Below are positions 53,850 through 64,000 of a stretch of 64,000 bases of DNA, piece by piece; within the stretch, counting starts at the first letter, position 1, and every line of letters starts with the position of its first letter. This stretch comes from Bosea sp. AS-1. GTDB taxonomy: Bacteria > Pseudomonadota > Alphaproteobacteria > Rhizobiales > Beijerinckiaceae. The stretch is taken from NCBI RefSeq assembly GCF_002220095.1, contig NZ_CP022372.1:3754501-3818500 (forward strand). The letters are read 5' to 3'. Under the pieces are notes generated by a model that did not search any database, was not told the origin of the DNA, and worked only from the letters and a program-made list of their open reading frames with translations. The position numbers and the translations under genes are program-made.

Positions 53850-56800
53850 ATGCTGCAAGAGCTCTCGCGCCGCCAGTTCATGAAAGCCGCAGGAGCGGGG
53901 CTGGCCGGATCTGCCGTAGCCGCGCTCGGGTTCGGCGGGGCAGAAGAAGCCCTTGCTCAAGCCGTGCGGCCCTTCAAGCTGACAGGCACGACGGAAACCA
54001 GAAACACCTGTCCGTACTGCTCCGTCGCCTGTGGCGTGATCATGTACAGCCTGGGCGACAAATCGAAGAACGCCCACCCGGCGGTCATCCATATCGAAGG
54101 CGACCCGGATCATCCGACCAATCGCGGCACGCTCTGCCCGAAAGGCTCCGCCCTCCTCGACTTCATCCACTCCGAAACGCGCACCAAGGTCCCGCAATAT
54201 CGCGGACCGGGCCAGCGCGAGTTCAAGCCGATCAGCTGGGGCGAGGCGCTCGACCGCATCGCGCGGCTGATGAAGGATGACCGCGACAAGAACTTCATCG
54301 CGAAGAACCAGGACGGCACGACGGTCAACCGCTGGCTGACCACAGGCTTCCTGGCCGCTTCGGCGACCACCAACGAAACGGCCTTCCTGACCTACAAGGT
54401 CGTGCGAAGCCTCGGAGTCTTGGCGTTCGACAACCAGGCGCGTGTTTGACACGGACCGACGGTGGCCAGTCTGGCCCCAACATTCGGTCGCGGTGCGATG
54501 ACCAACTCCTGGACGGACATCAAGAACACCGACCTCGTCATCGTCATGGGCGGCAACGCCGCCGAAGCGCATCCGTGCGGCTTCAAATGGGTCACCGAGG
54601 CGAAAGCCCAGCGTGGCGCCAAGCTGATCGTCGTCGATCCGCGCTTCACGCGCACAGCCTCTGTCGCGGATTTCTACGCGCCGATCCGGCAAGGCACCGA
54701 CATCGCCTTCCTTCTCGGAGTGATCAGGTACTGTATCGAGAACGACAAGATCCAGCACGACTATGTGCGCGCCTTCACCAACGCGCCCTATATCGTGAAG
54801 GAGGGCTTCAGCTATCAGGACGGCCTGTTCTCCGGCTATGACGAGGCCAAGCGCGACTACGACCGCACGAGCTGGGAGTACGAGCTCGGGCCGGACGGTT
54901 ATGTCCAGGTCGACGAGACGCTGCAGAATCCGCGCTGCGTCTACCAGCTGCTGAAGAAGCACGTCGCGGCTTATACGCCCGAGATGGTCGAGCGCATCTG
55001 CGGCACGCCCAAGGACAAGTACGCGGCGATCTGCAAGATGATCTCCGAGTGCTCGGCGCGCGACCGGACGATGACGTCGATGTACGCGCTCGGCTGGACG
55101 CAGCATTCCAAGGGCTCGCAGAACATCCGCACCATGGCGATGGTGCAGTTGCTGCTCGGCAACATCGGCGTGCGCGGCGGCGGCATGAATGCGCTGCGCG
55201 GGCACTCCAACATCCAGGGGCTCACCGATATCGGCCTGATGTCGGACCTGATCCCGGGCTATCTGGCGATCCCGAAGGACAAGGAGGTCGATTTCGCGAC
55301 CTACATGTCGACGCGCGGCTTCAAGCCGCTGCGTCCAAACCAGATGAGCTACTGGCAGAACTACAGGAAGTTCATGGTGAGCTTCCTGAAGTCGATGTGG
55401 GGTCAGGCGGCGACGGCGGAAAACGACTTCGCCTATCAGTGGCTGCCTAAGCTCGACCTCGCCAGCTACGATCTGCTGCGCATCATGGACCTGATGTATC
55501 AAGGCAAGGTCAACGGCTATTTCTGCCAGGGCTTCAACCCGCTGCTCTCCGCGCCCAACCGCGGCAAGATCACGGCATCGCTGTCGAAGCTGAAGTTCCT
55601 GGTGGTGATGGACCCGCTGCAGACGGAGACGGCGCGGTTCTGGAAGGACGAGGGCGTCCATAACGACGTCAAGCCCGAGTCGATCCAGACCGAGGTCTTC
55701 GAGCTGCCGACGACCTGCTTCGCCGAGGACGAGGGCTCGCTGGTCAATTCCGGCCGCTGGCTGCAATGGCACTGGCCGGGGCAGGAACCTCCAGGCGAGG
55801 CGAAGACCGACACCTGGATCATGGCGCAGCTTCATATGCGGCTGCGCGCGCTCTACCAGAAGGAGGGCGGGGCCTTTCCAGACCCGATCGTCAACCTGCA
55901 CTGGCCCTATCGCGACCCGATGGACCCGCAGGCCGACGAGATGGCGAAGGAACTCAACGGCTACGTCGTCTCCACCGTCACCGACCCGGCAGACCCGAAC
56001 AAGGTCCTGCTGGAGAAGGGCAAGCAGGTCGACGCTTTCGGCCAGTTGCGCGACGACGGCTCGACCGCCTGTGGCTGCTGGATCTACTCCGGTTGCTGGA
56101 CCGAGAAGGGCAACATGATGGCCCGTCGCGACACCAGCGATCCGGGCAATACCGGCGCCTATTCGAACTGGGCGTTCTCCTGGCCGGCCAACCGGCGCAT
56201 CCTCTACAACCGCGCCTCGGCCGATCTCGACGGCAAGGCCTGGGATCCCAGGCGCAAGCTGATCGAGTGGAACGGCACCGCCTGGACCGGCTACGACGTG
56301 CCGGACATCGCGGTGAACGCCAAACCCCGGGATGTCGGTCCTTTCATCATGAACCCCGAGGGATCGGCCCGGCTGTTCGCCCGCGGCCTGATGCGGGACG
56401 GGCCCTTCCCGGCGCATTACGAGCCGTTCGAAAGCCCCGTGGTCAACGTGATGGCGCCCAAGATCCGCGGCAACCCGGCCGCGCGCATCTTCAAGGATGA
56501 TCTCGCCGCGCTCGGCACTTCGGACAAATTCCCCTATGCGGCGACCTCCTACCGCCTGACCGAGCATTTCCACTTCTGGACGAAGCATGTCTGGGTGAAC
56601 TCGGTGCTGCAGCCGGAGTTCTTCGTCGAGCTCAGCGAGCAGCTGGCGAAGGAGAAGAACATCCAGAACGGCGGCTGGGTGAAGGTCTCCTCCAACCGTG
56701 GTTCGGTCTACGCCAAAGCGGTGGTGACCAAACGCATCAAGCCGCTGACCTGCGACGGCAAGACCGTGCACGTTGTCGGCATCCCGCTCCACTGGGGCTT

Positions 56801-58611: not shown

Positions 58612-59532
58612 ATGAGTGACGTGCCGGGCTTTGCGCCCTTCGAGGATGTCGGCATCGCGGAACGCGACAAGCCGCCCTTTGTCCGCCTGCCCTTGCCGGG
58701 AACGCTGTTCGGCCTGCGCGCCATGCGCTTTGCAGCGCTGGCACCTGGCCACCAGCTCGAACCCTATCTGAATTTTCTCGCCGCGTTGTCACGGGCGCAG
58801 GACGAGATCGCGCGGGCATCGCCGCCCCCTGCCCTGCCCGCGCTGAACGACCTCAGGATGCGCGCGGCAAATGCCATGCCTGTGCTGCCGCGCGAAGAGC
58901 TGGCTGAAGACCCAGCCGCATCCGCAGCCCTCGACAGGCTGGCGGTTCTGCTCGACGGGGCGGCCATGCCCGACCTCGCCCGCAATGCCCTGGAGCGGAC
59001 CAAGGCAACGGATCGGGACGCCCGTCGTGCCATGTTCGATGCCGTGCTGGCGGACGCGATCCCGGTCGAGGCCGTGGCCGAGCACATCTTCGTCGCAGCG
59101 GCCCTGCAGGTCGTCGCAGCCCGGCGCGCTGCGGAGCTCGATCCCCTGCTGCCGCAACCGGTCGCGGGTGGTGTCTGCCCCTGCTGCGGCGGGCCGCCGG
59201 TGGCGAGCGCGATCGTGGCCGATCTGGAGGTCGAGGGCGTCCGCTATGTCCAGTGCTCGCTCTGTGCGACGCAGTGGAATCACGTCCGGGTGAAATGCGT
59301 CTCCTGCGGCTCGACCAAGGGCATCGCCTATCAGGCGATCGAGGGCATTGCCGACACGATCAAGGCCGAGACCTGCGACGAGTGCCGGACCTATGTGAAG
59401 ATCCTCAACCGCCGCAAGGATACGGAGCTGGAACCGGTCGCCGACGATGTCGCGAGCCTCGGCCTCGACCTGCTGGTGATCGAAGCCGGCTGGAAACGAG
59501 CGGGGGTGAATCCGTTTCTGCTGGGCTATTGA
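58612..59532 (+). CDS. fdhE: formate dehydrogenase accessory protein FdhE
   Basis: The 306-residue assembly factor for membrane formate dehydrogenases has an N-terminal helical half and a C-terminal rubredoxin-like half with paired cysteines: CPCCGGPP, YVQCSLCATQWNHVRVKCVSCGS and ETCDECRTYVKILN. These bind iron and are conserved in E. coli FdhE. ATG 58612 follows GAGGATCGG; an ATG 21 bp upstream is less likely. It sits between the structural genes and selA. Confidence 0.92.
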   Translation: MSDVPGFAPFEDVGIAERDKPPFVRLPLPGTLFGLRAMRFAALAPGHQLEPYLNFLAALSRAQDEIARASPPPALPALNDLRMRAANAMPVLPREELAEDPAASAALDRLAVLLDGAAMPDLARNALERTKATDRDARRAMFDAVLADAIPVEAVAEHIFVAAALQVVAARRAAELDPLLPQPVAGGVCPCCGGPPVASAIVADLEVEGVRYVQCSLCATQWNHVRVKCVSCGSTKGIAYQAIEGIADTIKAETCDECRTYVKILNRRKDTELEPVADDVASLGLDLLVIEAGWKRAGVNPFLLGY

Positions 59533-59560
59533 TGATCACGTGTCTCCCGGAGGGAGCCTG

Positions 59561-60967
59561 ATGAACAGACCCGAACGCTTCCGTCCCCCTTCGGTCGATG
59601 AGATCCTGCGCAGCGGCGAAGGTGCACTTGCCATCGCCCGCCATGGACGCGCCGAGACGACGCAGGCGGTGCGGCAGGTGCTCGAGCGGATGCGCCAGAG
59701 CGGGACGTCTCCCTCAGTCTCCGCCGATGCCGTTGCTCGTATGGCGCTCGATCTCTTGGAGGCGCGCGAGCGGCCGTCGCAACGCCCCGTCATCAACCTC
59801 ACGGGCACGGTGCTGCACACCAATCTCGGCCGCGCACTGCTGGCAGAAGAGGCGATTCAGGCGGTCGTTACCGCCATGCGCGCGCCAACCAACCTCGAAT
59901 ACGAGATCAAGGCCGGCCAGCGCGGCGAGCGCGATGCGCATGTACGCGACCTGATCCGCGAACTGACCGGCGCCGAAGATGCTGTCCTGGTCAACAACAA
60001 CGCCGCCGCGGTGCTGCTGGTCCTGAACACTTTCGCCAAGGACCGCGAGGCGATCGTCTCGCGCGGCGAACTGATCGAGATCGGCGGCGCCTTCCGCATG
60101 CCGGACATCATGGCGCGGGCCGGCGCGATCCTGCGCGAGGTCGGCACCACCAACCGCACGCATCTCAGGGATTATGCAGAAGCCATCGGCGCCGAAACCG
60201 GGCTCCTACTGAAGGTGCATACCTCCAACTATGTGGTGCAGGGCTTCACGGCGGAGGTCGAGCCGCCTGAGCTGGCGAAGCTCGCTCGCACGCATGGCGT
60301 GCCCTTCGTCGACGATCTCGGCTCCGGCACGCTGATCGACTTCGCCCGCTGGGGCCTGCGCCATGAAAAGACCGTGCAGGACGCCCTGAAGGGCGGCGCC
60401 GATCTCGTCACCTTCTCGGGCGACAAGCTGCTCGGAGGTCCCCAGGCCGGCATCGTCGCCGGTCGCAAGGATCTGATCGCCAAACTGGCGAAGAACCCGC
60501 TCAAGCGGGCGCTGCGGCTCGACAAGCTCCGCCTCGCGGCCCTGGAGGCAACGCTCAGGCTCTATCGCGATCCCGACCGGCTGGCCGAGCGCCTGCCGAC
60601 GCTGCGGCTCTTCACCCGCAAGGCAGCGGAACTCCACGCGCTGGCCGAAAAACTCCGACCCGCCCTCGCTGCGACGCTCGGCGCGGGCTGGAGCGTCGAG
60701 ACCGTCGACTGTGCCAGCCAGATCGGCTCCGGCGCGCTGCCGTTGGAGACGCTGCCCAGCACCGGGCTGGCGATCAAGCCGGTAGGCAAGGCCTCCGGCG
60801 GCGCGGTCGAGGCGCTGGCTGCCGCGTTTCGGACCGTGCCGGTGCCGGTGATCGGACGGATCGCCCAAGGGACGCTGATCTTCGACCTGCGCTGCCTCGA
60901 AGACGAAGCCTTGTTCGCTGCGCAGCTTGCGACCCTGAAGCCCGGAGGTGGCGATGGGTTGGCTTGA
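59561..60967 (+). CDS. selA: L-seryl-tRNA(Sec) selenium transferase
   Basis: This 468-residue PLP enzyme converts seryl-tRNA(Sec) to selenocysteyl-tRNA(Sec) with selenophosphate. Signatures are NLTGTVLHTNLGRALLAEEA, NNNAAAVLLVLNTFA, GDDLGSGTLIDF-like FVDDLGSGTLID and the PLP lysine in TFSGDKLLGGPQAGI. Length matches E. coli SelA (463). ATG 59561 has a strong GGAGGGAG site; the in-frame codon at 59540 lies before it. The 3' end overlaps the next gene by 14 bp. selD (selenophosphate synthetase) is not in the window. Confidence 0.94.
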   Translation: MNRPERFRPPSVDEILRSGEGALAIARHGRAETTQAVRQVLERMRQSGTSPSVSADAVARMALDLLEARERPSQRPVINLTGTVLHTNLGRALLAEEAIQAVVTAMRAPTNLEYEIKAGQRGERDAHVRDLIRELTGAEDAVLVNNNAAAVLLVLNTFAKDREAIVSRGELIEIGGAFRMPDIMARAGAILREVGTTNRTHLRDYAEAIGAETGLLLKVHTSNYVVQGFTAEVEPPELAKLARTHGVPFVDDLGSGTLIDFARWGLRHEKTVQDALKGGADLVTFSGDKLLGGPQAGIVAGRKDLIAKLAKNPLKRALRLDKLRLAALEATLRLYRDPDRLAERLPTLRLFTRKAAELHALAEKLRPALAATLGAGWSVETVDCASQIGSGALPLETLPSTGLAIKPVGKASGGAVEALAAAFRTVPVPVIGRIAQGTLIFDLRCLEDEALFAAQLATLKPGGGDGLA

Positions 60968-61694
60968 CCGGCTGCGCGGCAAGGAGCGCTCCGAGGCCGA
61001 GGACGTCTCCGCCGCGATGGGGCGGGCCGCCGAGGCTGTCGCGCAGGGCGACCATCGGGCGGCGCTGGCGATCTGGGGGCCTCTCGCCCATGCCGGCGTC
61101 GCACGCGCGCAGAACAATATCGGCGCCTGCTTCGCCGAGGGGCTCGGGGTCGATCGTGATCTCGCCCTTGCGCTGCGCTGGCTGACACTCGCAGCCCAGA
61201 GCGGCGACCCGGTGGGACAGCGCAATCTCGCGGCGCTCTATTTCAGAGGCGACGGTGTTGCCCAGAGCGACGAGGAGGCGATGCGCCTCTACCGGCTTTC
61301 CGCCGAGCAAGGCGATGCCCCGGCCCAGGACATGCTGTCCTGGATGCTGCTCGAGGGTGGCCGGTCCGAGGACCATCCCGAGGCCTTGCGCTGGGCCCAA
61401 GCCGCAGCCGAGGCCGGCGTCGAGACCAGCATGACCCGGCTCGGCATGATGTTCCATGACGCGCTCGGCGTGGAGCGCGACGCTGCCGCGGCCGCCGCCT
61501 GGTGGCAGCGCGGAATGGATGCAGGCGACCCCGATTCGGAAGCGATGCTCGGTGCGGCCACCCTGCTCGGCCAGGGTGTGGCAGCCGATGCGGAGCGCGC
61601 CCTTGCTCTCCTGCTTGCAGCCGAGAGCAAGGGCAGCCGGCTCGCTGCACCCTTCATCAAGGCCGCGCGCGCCGCCTCACCGGCGGAGGCCTGA
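60954..61694 (+). CDS. Sel1-like repeat protein
   Basis: The 246-residue alpha-helical repeat protein contains about five Sel1-like (TPR-related) units, for example [54 protein letters not shown] and [20 protein letters not shown]. It has no signal peptide ([17 protein letters not shown]), so it is cytoplasmic. ATG 60954 is placed 6 bp after CGGAGG and overlaps selA; GTG 60948 is an alternative. It lies between selA and selB, 3 bp from selB, so it is translated with them. A scaffolding role in selenoprotein synthesis or formate dehydrogenase assembly is inferred only from position. Confidence 0.82.
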
Positions 61695-61697
61695 GCC

Positions 61698-63725
61698 ATG
61701 ATCATCGGCACGGCCGGCCATATCGACCACGGCAAGACCGCGCTGGTGAAGCGGTTGACCGGCGTCGACACCGACCGGCTGAAGGAGGAGAAGGCCCGCG
61801 GCATCTCGATCGCGCTCGGCTTCGCCTATTGGTCACAGCCCGATGGTTCCGTGATCGGCTTCATCGACGTGCCGGGCCATGAGAAGCTGGTCCATACGAT
61901 GCTGGCCGGCGCCTCGGGCATCGACCTGCTGCTGCTGGTGGTCGCGGCGGACGACGGGGTGATGCCGCAGACGCGCGAACATGTCGCCATCGCGCGCCTG
62001 CTCGGCATCGACCGGGCCGTGGTCGCACTGAGCAAGACCGATCTCGCCGACGCGGATCGGATCGCGGCGGTACGCCGCGAGATCGAAGCCCTGCTCGCGG
62101 ACACGCCCTTCGCCGATGCGCCGATGCTGCCGGTCTCTGCCGTGAGCGGCGATGGCCTCGCGGAACTGGGCGGCCTGCTCGCGACAAAGGCGCGCCAGGC
62201 GCAGGACCGGCAGGGCGATGGGGCCTTCCGCCTTGCCGTCGACCGCTGCTTCACATTGCAGGGCACCGGCACCGTCGTGACCGGCACGGTGCTTTCAGGT
62301 GCGGTCTCGGTCGGCGACCATGTCGTCGTCTCCCCGTCCGGCTTGCCGGCACGCATCCGCTCGATCCACGCTCAGAACCGCCCGGCCGAGACCGGCCATG
62401 CCGGCGACCGCTGCGCGCTCAATCTCGCCGGCCCCGGCATCTCCAAGGATGCGATCCGGCATGGCGACATGGTGCTGGCGCCCGTCCTGCACGCGCCGGC
62501 GAGCCGGATCGACGCCGAGATCACGCTGCTCGCCTCGGAGTCGCGGCCGCTCGCCATGTGGCAACCCGTGCGGTTGCATCACGCAGCAGCCGAGGTCGGC
62601 GCACGCGTCGTGCTGCTGGGCGACGAGCTCGCTCCAGGCACAACAGGACCGATCCAGCTCGTGCTCGACAGCCCGCTCGCGGCCGCGGCGCTCGACCGTT
62701 TCGTGCTGCGCGACGTCTCGGCGTCACGCACCATCGGAGGCGGCCGCTTCCTCGATCTGCGCGCACCGGAGCGGCGGCGGCGCAGCCCCGAGCGACTGGC
62801 GCAGCTTTCGGCACGCGGCCTTGCCGATCCCGCTGCGGCCCTCAACACCCTGCTCGCGGTGCCGCCGCACCATGTCGAGATCGACAGCTTCGCCCGCGAC
62901 CGTGCCCTCGGCCTCGAGGCGGCCGATGAACTGACGCAGCGCCTCGGCCTCGTCAGGATCGGCGCCCTCGCGATGCCGTCCACGCACTGGCAGGCGCTGG
63001 CGCGGGCCGTCGGCACTACGCTCGATGCCTACCATGTCGAGCATCCCGACCTTCCCGGCATGGGGCTGGAGCGGCTGAGGCTTGCCGTCGCGCCGCGTCA
63101 ACCGGCCCCTTTGTTCCGCCAGGCTCTGGCGCGGCTGGTGGAGGACGGCACCGTAGCGACCGCCGGCTCCTGGATCAGGAGGCCGGGGCATGAGGTCAGG
63201 CTCTCTCCGGACGACGAGGCGCTCTGGACACGGATCGCGCCATTGATCGGCGGCGAGGAACGCTTCCGCCCGCCGCGCGTGCGTGACATCGGCCAGGCGC
63301 TGGACCGGCGCGAGGAGGATATCCGCCGGCTGCTCCGGCTTGTGGGCCGGCGCGGCGATGTGCTTGAGGTCGCGCTCGATCACTTCTTCCTGCGCGGGAC
63401 GTTGACCGAGATGGTCGGCATTGCAAGCGCGCTCGCCGGGCTCGCCCCGGCCGGCTTCAACGCCGCCCAGTTCCGCGACAGGCTCGACAACGGCCGAAAG
63501 GTCGCTATCCAGATTCTCGAGTTCTTCGATCGTCATGGCGTCACCATCCGCCGCGGCGATCTGAGGCGCATCAACCGGCAGCGGCTCGACCTGTTCGGGC
63601 CGCTGCCGATGATGCCCGATGGAGGAGAAGCGTCCCCGGTGGGGCGTCCGGACTTCAAATCCGGGAGGGGCCGTCAGACGGTCTCTGGTGGGTTCGACTC
63701 CCATTCTCTTCCGCCACTTCCCTGA
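61698..63725 (+). CDS. selB: selenocysteine-specific elongation factor SelB, C-terminus encoded by tRNA-Sec gene
   Basis: The 675-residue protein delivers Sec-tRNA to UGA codons at a SECIS. The GTPase domain has [17 protein letters not shown] (G1), [10 protein letters not shown] (G3) and LSKTDLAD (G4); an EF-Tu-like domain follows, then winged-helix domains at the C-terminus that bind SECIS (ending [21 protein letters not shown], where related SelB proteins usually stop). Here the frame continues through the entire tRNA-Sec gene (from codon 642) and stops with TGA 7 bp after the tRNA CCA end, adding [21 protein letters not shown] sequence. It is the same frame with no earlier stop codon. Confidence 0.94.
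63621..63716 (+). tRNA. selC: tRNA-Sec (anticodon TCA)
   Basis: The 96-nt selenocysteine tRNA has an 8-bp acceptor stem (GGAGGAGA with TCTCTTCC, one G-U), discriminator G and encoded CCA (63714-63716). The 6-bp D stem is CGTCCC/GGGGCG, the anticodon stem CCGGA/TCCGG with loop CTTCAAA (anticodon TCA at 63655-63657), a long variable arm GGGGCCGT/ACGGTCTC, and the T arm has GGTTCGACTC. These are the bacterial tRNA-Sec hallmarks (8-bp acceptor, 6-bp D stem). It lies wholly inside the selB frame. Confidence 0.96.
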
Positions 63726-63747
63726 GGAGCCATGATCGAGAGGCCGC

Positions 63748-64000
63748 GTGTCGACATCTAGAGGCAAGGCACGCGGACTCGGTACCGATTTCGACCGCTG
63801 GCTCGGCAAGCTCTTCCGCAAGGGGCCGTTCACGGCGCTGATCGTGCTGGTGAAGATCGCCGAACCGAAGGTGGAGCCGTTGCGCTCGACCTTCGTTCAT
63901 GTCATCGGCGACGAGATCGACTGGGGCGACATCGTGCTGATGCTGCGCGGCGCAGGCGTCAACTGGGACGGCGCGGCCTTCTTCCCCACCCGCGAGGGTG
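63748..64000 (+). CDS. unrecognised protein, 3' truncated by window edge
   Basis: An open frame from GTG 63748 runs to the window end (84 residues visible, beginning MSTSRGKARGLGTDFDRWLG, later IVLVKIAEPKVEPLRSTFVH). The N-terminus is basic. I do not recognise the family. It follows tRNA-Sec by 31 bp and is probably cotranscribed with the selenium genes. A short ATG frame at 63732 ends after 9 codons. Whether it relates to selenium metabolism is unknown. Confidence 0.6.
   Translation, partial: MSTSRGKARGLGTDFDRWLGKLFRKGPFTALIVLVKIAEPKVEPLRSTFVHVIGDEIDWGDIVLMLRGAGVNWDGAAFFPTREG

Follow-up and report, generated by a model that had tools for sequence, protein, structure and literature searches.

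Can one RNA serve both as the message for the elongation factor SelB and as the source of its tRNA? The question is raised by the 3′ end of selB in the window (i.e. the whole 64,000-nt stretch of DNA analyzed), where the gene for tRNA-Sec (selC) lies inside the coding region. Both the nested arrangement and the idea that each RNA yields one product or the other are already known, having been in print since 2021 (PMC8124441). Nesting of tRNA-Sec in selB was described across Alphaproteobacteria, namely in Rhizobiales and in some members of Rhodobacterales, Rhodospirillales, and Caulobacterales (Mukai 2021, Int J Mol Sci 22:4605; PMC8124441). The same study recorded frame conservation as well as stop/start overlaps involving the downstream genes ORF1 and ORF2, and hypothesized that the products of processing include a nonstop SelB mRNA and, downstream, a leaderless mRNA for ORF1/2 (PMC8124441). 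Two reviews repeat this arrangement (PMC13188914, PMC9312934) and one further paper makes an unrelated use of the study (PMC12685816). The 2021 text comes without frame counts against chance, linker analysis, or ORF1 remnants of the kind found in the window (PMC8124441). Added here are frame and linker counts, an assessment of tail disorder and linker constraint, and counts relating the selB stop to ORF1. In the literature searched, which excluded subscription papers and preprints, we found no experimental test of a nested selB-selC locus, no mapping of its RNA ends or of the SelB tail, and no paper on nested tRNAs combined with nonstop RNA.

A tRNA-Sec gene in frame at the 3′ end of selB

The selB gene (61698..63725, plus strand), identified as an open reading frame with domain matches, starts with ATG, comprises 675 codons, and ends with a TGA at 63723-63725. 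The complete tRNA-Sec gene (63621..63716, plus strand; 96 nt with encoded CCA, anticodon TCA) lies entirely within this frame and on the same strand. ARAGORN called a single tRNA in the window, tRNA-SeC with a TCA anticodon, at 63620-63716, and the Rfam family RF01852 matched at 63621-63712 (79.3 bits, gathering 47; E = 2 × 10−15). We took the mature span as the RF01852 match plus GCCA. Folded alone, the tRNA forms a cloverleaf with an 8-bp acceptor stem, a 5-bp T-stem, and a long variable arm (z = -2.35). Together with the score and the anticodon, these features place it in RF01852. Folded with its flanks it shows the same cloverleaf, at a stability that is not unusual (z = 0.86).

The first base of the tRNA opens codon 642 of selB, as (63621-61698)/3 = 641. 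Nested tRNAs as described in 2021 have a length divisible by three (96 nt including CCA, or 93); the one in the window has 96 nt, and the frame continues through it as residues 642-673. Two further codons and the stop follow (63717..63725, plus strand; CCCTGAGGAG), overlapping the likely Shine-Dalgarno stretch of the next start codon, and the TGA starts 7 bases past the last CCA base. The first-pass annotation had described a complete tRNA-Sec starting exactly at codon 642, a selB frame running on to a TGA 7 bp past the CCA, and residues 642-675 encoded by the tRNA gene and its trailer. The coordinates, ARAGORN, RF01852, and the reading of 63621-63725 confirm this nesting to the base. It had also stated that cutting out the tRNA would take the selB stop codon away, and the geometry bears this out. 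Since cleavage at the tRNA 5′ end leaves the upstream RNA without any selB stop codon, one RNA cannot give both a mature tRNA-Sec and a stop-bearing SelB mRNA; the levels of the two partners might be linked in this way, as the annotation had suggested.

No second copy of either partner was found in the genome. A search for SelB gave one full-length match, the next-best matches covering at most 370 residues at no more than 35% identity, except for one of 161 residues at 37%. A search with the tRNA-Sec family gave eight matches, and ARAGORN calls tRNA-Sec only for the one nested in selB; the second match above the cut-off (51.9 bits) is a tRNA-Ser according to ARAGORN, and the six weaker ones are other tRNAs. 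A tmRNA is present. A user of the selenocysteine system is found in the window itself, where a formate dehydrogenase gene contains a SECIS_3 element (54444-54502) and an in-frame TGA for Sec (54447-54449).

Upstream of selB lie selA (59540..60967, plus strand), encoding L-seryl-tRNA-Sec selenium transferase and named from sequence reading and place rather than from a family search, and a gene for a Sel1-repeat protein (60948..61694, plus strand). The latter overlaps the end of selA (60967), and 3 nt separate its stop from the selB ATG. A simple scan of 59400-64000 for the sigma-70 consensus alone gave no promoter-like site (0.3 expected), which is weak evidence in this group. Beyond the window, a gene read from its sequence as selD-like lies on the minus strand, convergent to ORF2 (L150:3151-4272).

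The protein belongs to the SelB family (TIGR00475, 426 bits against a cut-off of 242; E = 2.5 × 10−127; residues 1-625) and matches the Pfam domains GTP_EFTU, Beta-barrel_SelB, SelB-wing_2, and SelB-wing_3. All models stop short of the tRNA, SelB-wing_3 at residue 624 and TIGR00475 at 625. The solved SelB structure 5lzb, which we take to be that of the E. coli protein, aligns up to residue 622. In an AlphaFold2 model built from 41 aligned relatives, the last helix spans residues 627-633, placing the end of the core fold at about 633 (63596), and pLDDT stays below 50 across 638-675. These three lines of evidence indicate that the fold ends before the tRNA, as had been proposed at first reading, and that the last 34 residues derive from the tRNA and its trailer; this tail is predicted to be disordered. 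The annotation had left it as either tolerated or functional, and the low pLDDT together with the nearly unconstrained linker lean toward tolerated.

The linker (63597..63620, plus strand) joins the conserved LF end of SelB to the tRNA by eight codons, GPLPMMPD. Its length of 24 nt is shared by 22 nested loci, 21 of them on the Bosea branch of the window. Across these 22 loci, mean entropy at the three codon positions is 0.69, 0.90, and 0.95 in the linker, against 0.17, 0.06, and 0.65 in the 30 codons before it, so the linker appears to be under little constraint and to carry little codon-position bias. The tail peptide is probably not what selection keeps. Nor do peptide properties explain frame 0: hydropathy is equal in frames 0 and 1, and frame 0 has the lower net charge. 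In other genera, many tails have a conserved end, RSAR or similar, which is a Shine-Dalgarno stretch with a start codon translated in the frame of selB.

Distribution of nesting and the frame through the tRNA

The first-pass annotation had proposed comparing selB-selC junctions in relatives for an open frame. Junctions were read in 167 distinct SelB loci from 184 rows (the window and 183 locus rows), with two records of the same locus (L163 and L082) counted once and the halves of one broken selB (L172 and L173) counted once as stopping before the tRNA. As one set of relatives was the best 80 of 521, the totals are weighted to the kin of the window. The open frame proved to be conserved: selB runs through the tRNA in 78 loci, stops before it in 58, and stops inside it in four, and 27 loci had no downstream tRNA-Sec in the fetched stretch.

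In even samples, each of which included the genome of the window, SelB was found in 24 of 61 genomes of the genus (23 of the 24 nested), 26 of 397 of the order (seven nested), 49 of 385 of the class (30 read, three nested; 19 left unread), and 51 of 398 of the phylum (30 read, three nested; 21 left unread). Judged from these junctions, nesting is present in many alphaproteobacteria and is beyond chance. It was gained or lost nine times on the SelB tree and is therefore dispensable.

The nested loci published in 2021 resemble that of the window in having a whole tRNA-Sec of 96 nt that is oriented like selB, lies within it, and keeps its frame, a tail that starts with Gly (GGA) and whose tRNA part ends with Pro (CCA), and an association with fdoGHI-selABC, a Sel1-like protein, and ORF1/ORF2 (PMC8124441). 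Other overlaps are of a different kind. In Shewanella and Ferrimonas, selB and selC overlap as here, but selB ends in an antisense selC on the opposite strand (PMC8124441). In Dyella and Luteibacter, selB stops inside selC, so that the overlap is only partial (PMC8124441); this type was also found in L077, L078, and L117. A tRNA-Lys in cox1 of the Armadillidium vulgare mitochondrion is likewise a whole tRNA in direct orientation within a coding region, for which alternative processing was proposed (cited in PMC8124441); this case differs in its compact mitochondrial genome and in two products that are not partners.

Three loci stood out in other ways. In L076 (Microvirga calopogonii), the SelB tail follows the beginning of tRNA-Sec before diverging, and as no tRNA-Sec was found in the locus, this appears to be left over from nesting. 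On the SelB tree, L039 ("Mycobacterium sp. KBS0706") pairs with Inquilinus limosus, and L077, on a contig labeled "Candidatus Eremiobacteraeota", groups with Dyella. These two records are probably mislabeled, or the genes may have been transferred.

In all 78 distinct nested loci, selB enters the tRNA in frame 0, 77 by ARAGORN coordinates and L084 after correction of a start called one base early. The tRNA-Sec of L084 falls about two bases short of 96 nt, so that the exit frame of selB differs and its stop lies 21 nt beyond the tRNA. L078 was kept as ARAGORN gives it (frame 1), and its translated tail shows entry in frame 0 there too. Frame 0 is not forced by stop codons, as among 48 distinct nested tRNAs of 96 nt, 42 have an open frame 1 and 46 an open frame 2. 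In the 58 loci where selB stops before the tRNA, the latter lies in frames 0, 1, and 2 relative to selB in 17, 22, and 19 cases.

Among 73 nested loci, linkers have 18 different lengths between 24 and 93 nt, all multiples of three. At least 31 changes of linker length occurred on the SelB tree, every one by a multiple of three; this is the parsimony minimum on one quick maximum-likelihood tree and is to be read as an order of magnitude. If the frame were indifferent, about one third of such changes should preserve it. Setting the at least 31 frame-keeping length changes against at most nine changes of nesting gave binomial p ≈ 1 × 10−8 with one third expected and 3 × 10−4 with one half expected. 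The counts strengthen the case that selection has acted on the frame, the tail peptide apparently not being the reason.

ORF1 and ORF2 downstream of selB

The first open frame after selB in the window is a remnant of ORF1 (63732..63761, plus strand), nine codons reading MIERPRVDI with a TAG at 63759-63761. It retains the start region and the end of a gene of about 155 codons that is kept in relatives: intact copies in L010, L011, L093, and others have 154-156 codons and end with PRVDF where the window has PRVDI. ORF2 (63748..64000, plus strand) starts with a GTG that overlaps the remnant and leaves the window, being 129 codons long in all (L150:2749-3138). No Pfam match was found for ORF1 (range scanned offset by one codon) or ORF2, nor an NCBIfam match for ORF2.

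Unlike the overlaps recorded in 2021, the selB stop of the window does not overlap the next start; it lies in the likely Shine-Dalgarno stretch, 9 nt ahead of the remnant ATG and 25 nt ahead of the ORF2 GTG. In most loci listed for the genus, the stop is at +7 and an ATG follows 8-10 nt on. Of the 40 nested loci that have ORF1, 29 show the selB stop overlapping the ORF1 start and eight have it 8-10 nt ahead of an ATG; the other three fit neither pattern. This tight relation had not been noticed in the earlier annotation. ORF1 was called here as an open frame starting after the tRNA, in agreement with tblastn; an iterated profile search was discarded because it drifted, its frames taking in the tRNA-encoded peptide and giving false ORF1 claims.

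The ORF2 GTG lies 11 nt before the remnant stop, as it does before the end of the intact ORF1 in L009, L019, and L104; at the remaining loci with an intact ORF1, ORF2 was called as the longest frame, and its start falls further upstream. Remnants of 24 codons occur in eight other loci (L012, L013, L015, L016, L017, L099, L100, and L103), ORF2 being called with the same 11-nt overlap in seven of them, and in L018 the start of ORF1 is fused to ORF2. On the SelB tree, the window, the L015/L016/L018 group, and the L012 group sit on separate branches whose neighbors keep ORF1, which implies repeated loss of this gene. No codon-position bias is seen in the remnants (little or none in those of 24 codons), and for each of them a random sequence of like composition would be open 64% of the time.

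ORF1 or ORF2 was found downstream in 51 of 73 nested but only two of 22 non-nested loci (at least 55% identity; Fisher p = 6 × 10−7). With eight independent pairs the association has a median p of 0.625, and shared descent can thus explain it. Neither gene is present in 22 of the 73 nested loci, among which frame 0 was kept through at least 11 changes of linker length. Downstream coupling cannot, therefore, account for the frame everywhere.

Possible fates of the selB-selC transcript

The explanation that we consider best, and hold with about even confidence, is that one transcript has alternative fates, tRNA-Sec or SelB, and is in addition coupled to the downstream genes. Genes from selA through the Sel1-repeat gene, selB, and selC to ORF1/ORF2 would be transcribed as a single unit, with tRNA-Sec forming part of the selB message. 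RNase P and 3′ processing enzymes would excise the tRNA and leave an upstream piece without a stop codon, on which ribosomes would have to be rescued, possibly by the tmRNA; ORF1/ORF2 would then lose the ribosomes coming from selB. If left uncut, the RNA would be translated into SelB with a disordered tail of 34 residues, and ribosomes would reach the next start codon. Each RNA would thus give either tRNA-Sec, or SelB and the downstream proteins, and both the frame through the tRNA and the stop placed at the next start would serve the latter outcome. This reading draws on the geometry, the single tRNA-Sec and SelB, the tmRNA, frame 0 in 78 of 78 loci, linker changes in threes, the mixed frames where selB stops early, the stop/start relation in 37 of 40 loci with ORF1, and, as weak evidence, the empty sigma-70 scan. 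Against it stand the nine losses or gains of nesting, the 22 of 73 loci without ORF1/ORF2, the failure of the ORF1/ORF2 link in the shared-descent test, and the scant codon bias of the linker and the 24-codon remnants.

A sequencing error concealing a stop before the tRNA is already refuted, and as good as inconceivable, as the open junction recurs in 78 distinct loci from independent genomes, including 23 of 24 SelB genomes of the genus. A job for the tRNA-encoded peptide within SelB, such as touching the tRNA or the ribosome, is very improbable. A near-identical peptide is present in 41 of 41 rows of alignment A1, although these were found with a query containing it; its conservation is accounted for by the tRNA, it is predicted to be disordered, linker length and sequence vary freely, and relatives without it exist. 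Rather unlikely is a passive overlap, in which an ancestor lost the stop before selC, a harmless disordered tail was tolerated and inherited, and the tRNA comes from its own promoter or from ordinary processing. The low pLDDT of the tail, the hardly constrained linker, repeated loss of nesting, and the rarity of stops in GC-rich linkers all agree with such a history, but it does not predict the excess of frame-keeping linker changes over changes of nesting, nor that frames 1 and 2, though usually open, are used by no nested locus.

Rather unlikely, too, is a translational relay alone. Here the frame would be maintained so that ribosomes coming off selB can initiate at ORF1 and next at ORF2, the tRNA being merely en route and its cutting non-regulatory. 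It would explain why the selB stop overlaps or adjoins the ORF1 start in 37 of 40 loci, why the remnants keep a start after selB (one fused to ORF2), and why the 11-nt overlap with the ORF2 start, as called, persists in the window and in seven of eight remnant loci. It leaves aside the nested loci that lack both genes and yet keep frame 0; the remnants, moreover, lack codon-position bias and are often open by chance, so the relay idea is only suggested, and the pair test was not significant. The alternative fates that we favor might also be joined to such a relay, with the nested tRNA as its switch: excision would strand the SelB message without a stop and deprive ORF1/ORF2 of ribosomes, and where ORF1 was lost, a frame of nine or 24 codons would have been retained solely to hand ribosomes on from selB to ORF2. 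We regard this version as speculative and rather improbable.

A frame that is held while the peptide is otherwise unconstrained means that translation past the tRNA, or the lack of a stop before it, has mattered. If each RNA indeed gives either tRNA-Sec or SelB, the ratio of the elongation factor to its only tRNA would be set by the processing of one transcript, and the tRNA would be a regulatory element within a coding region, a model directly testable in a cultivable relative.
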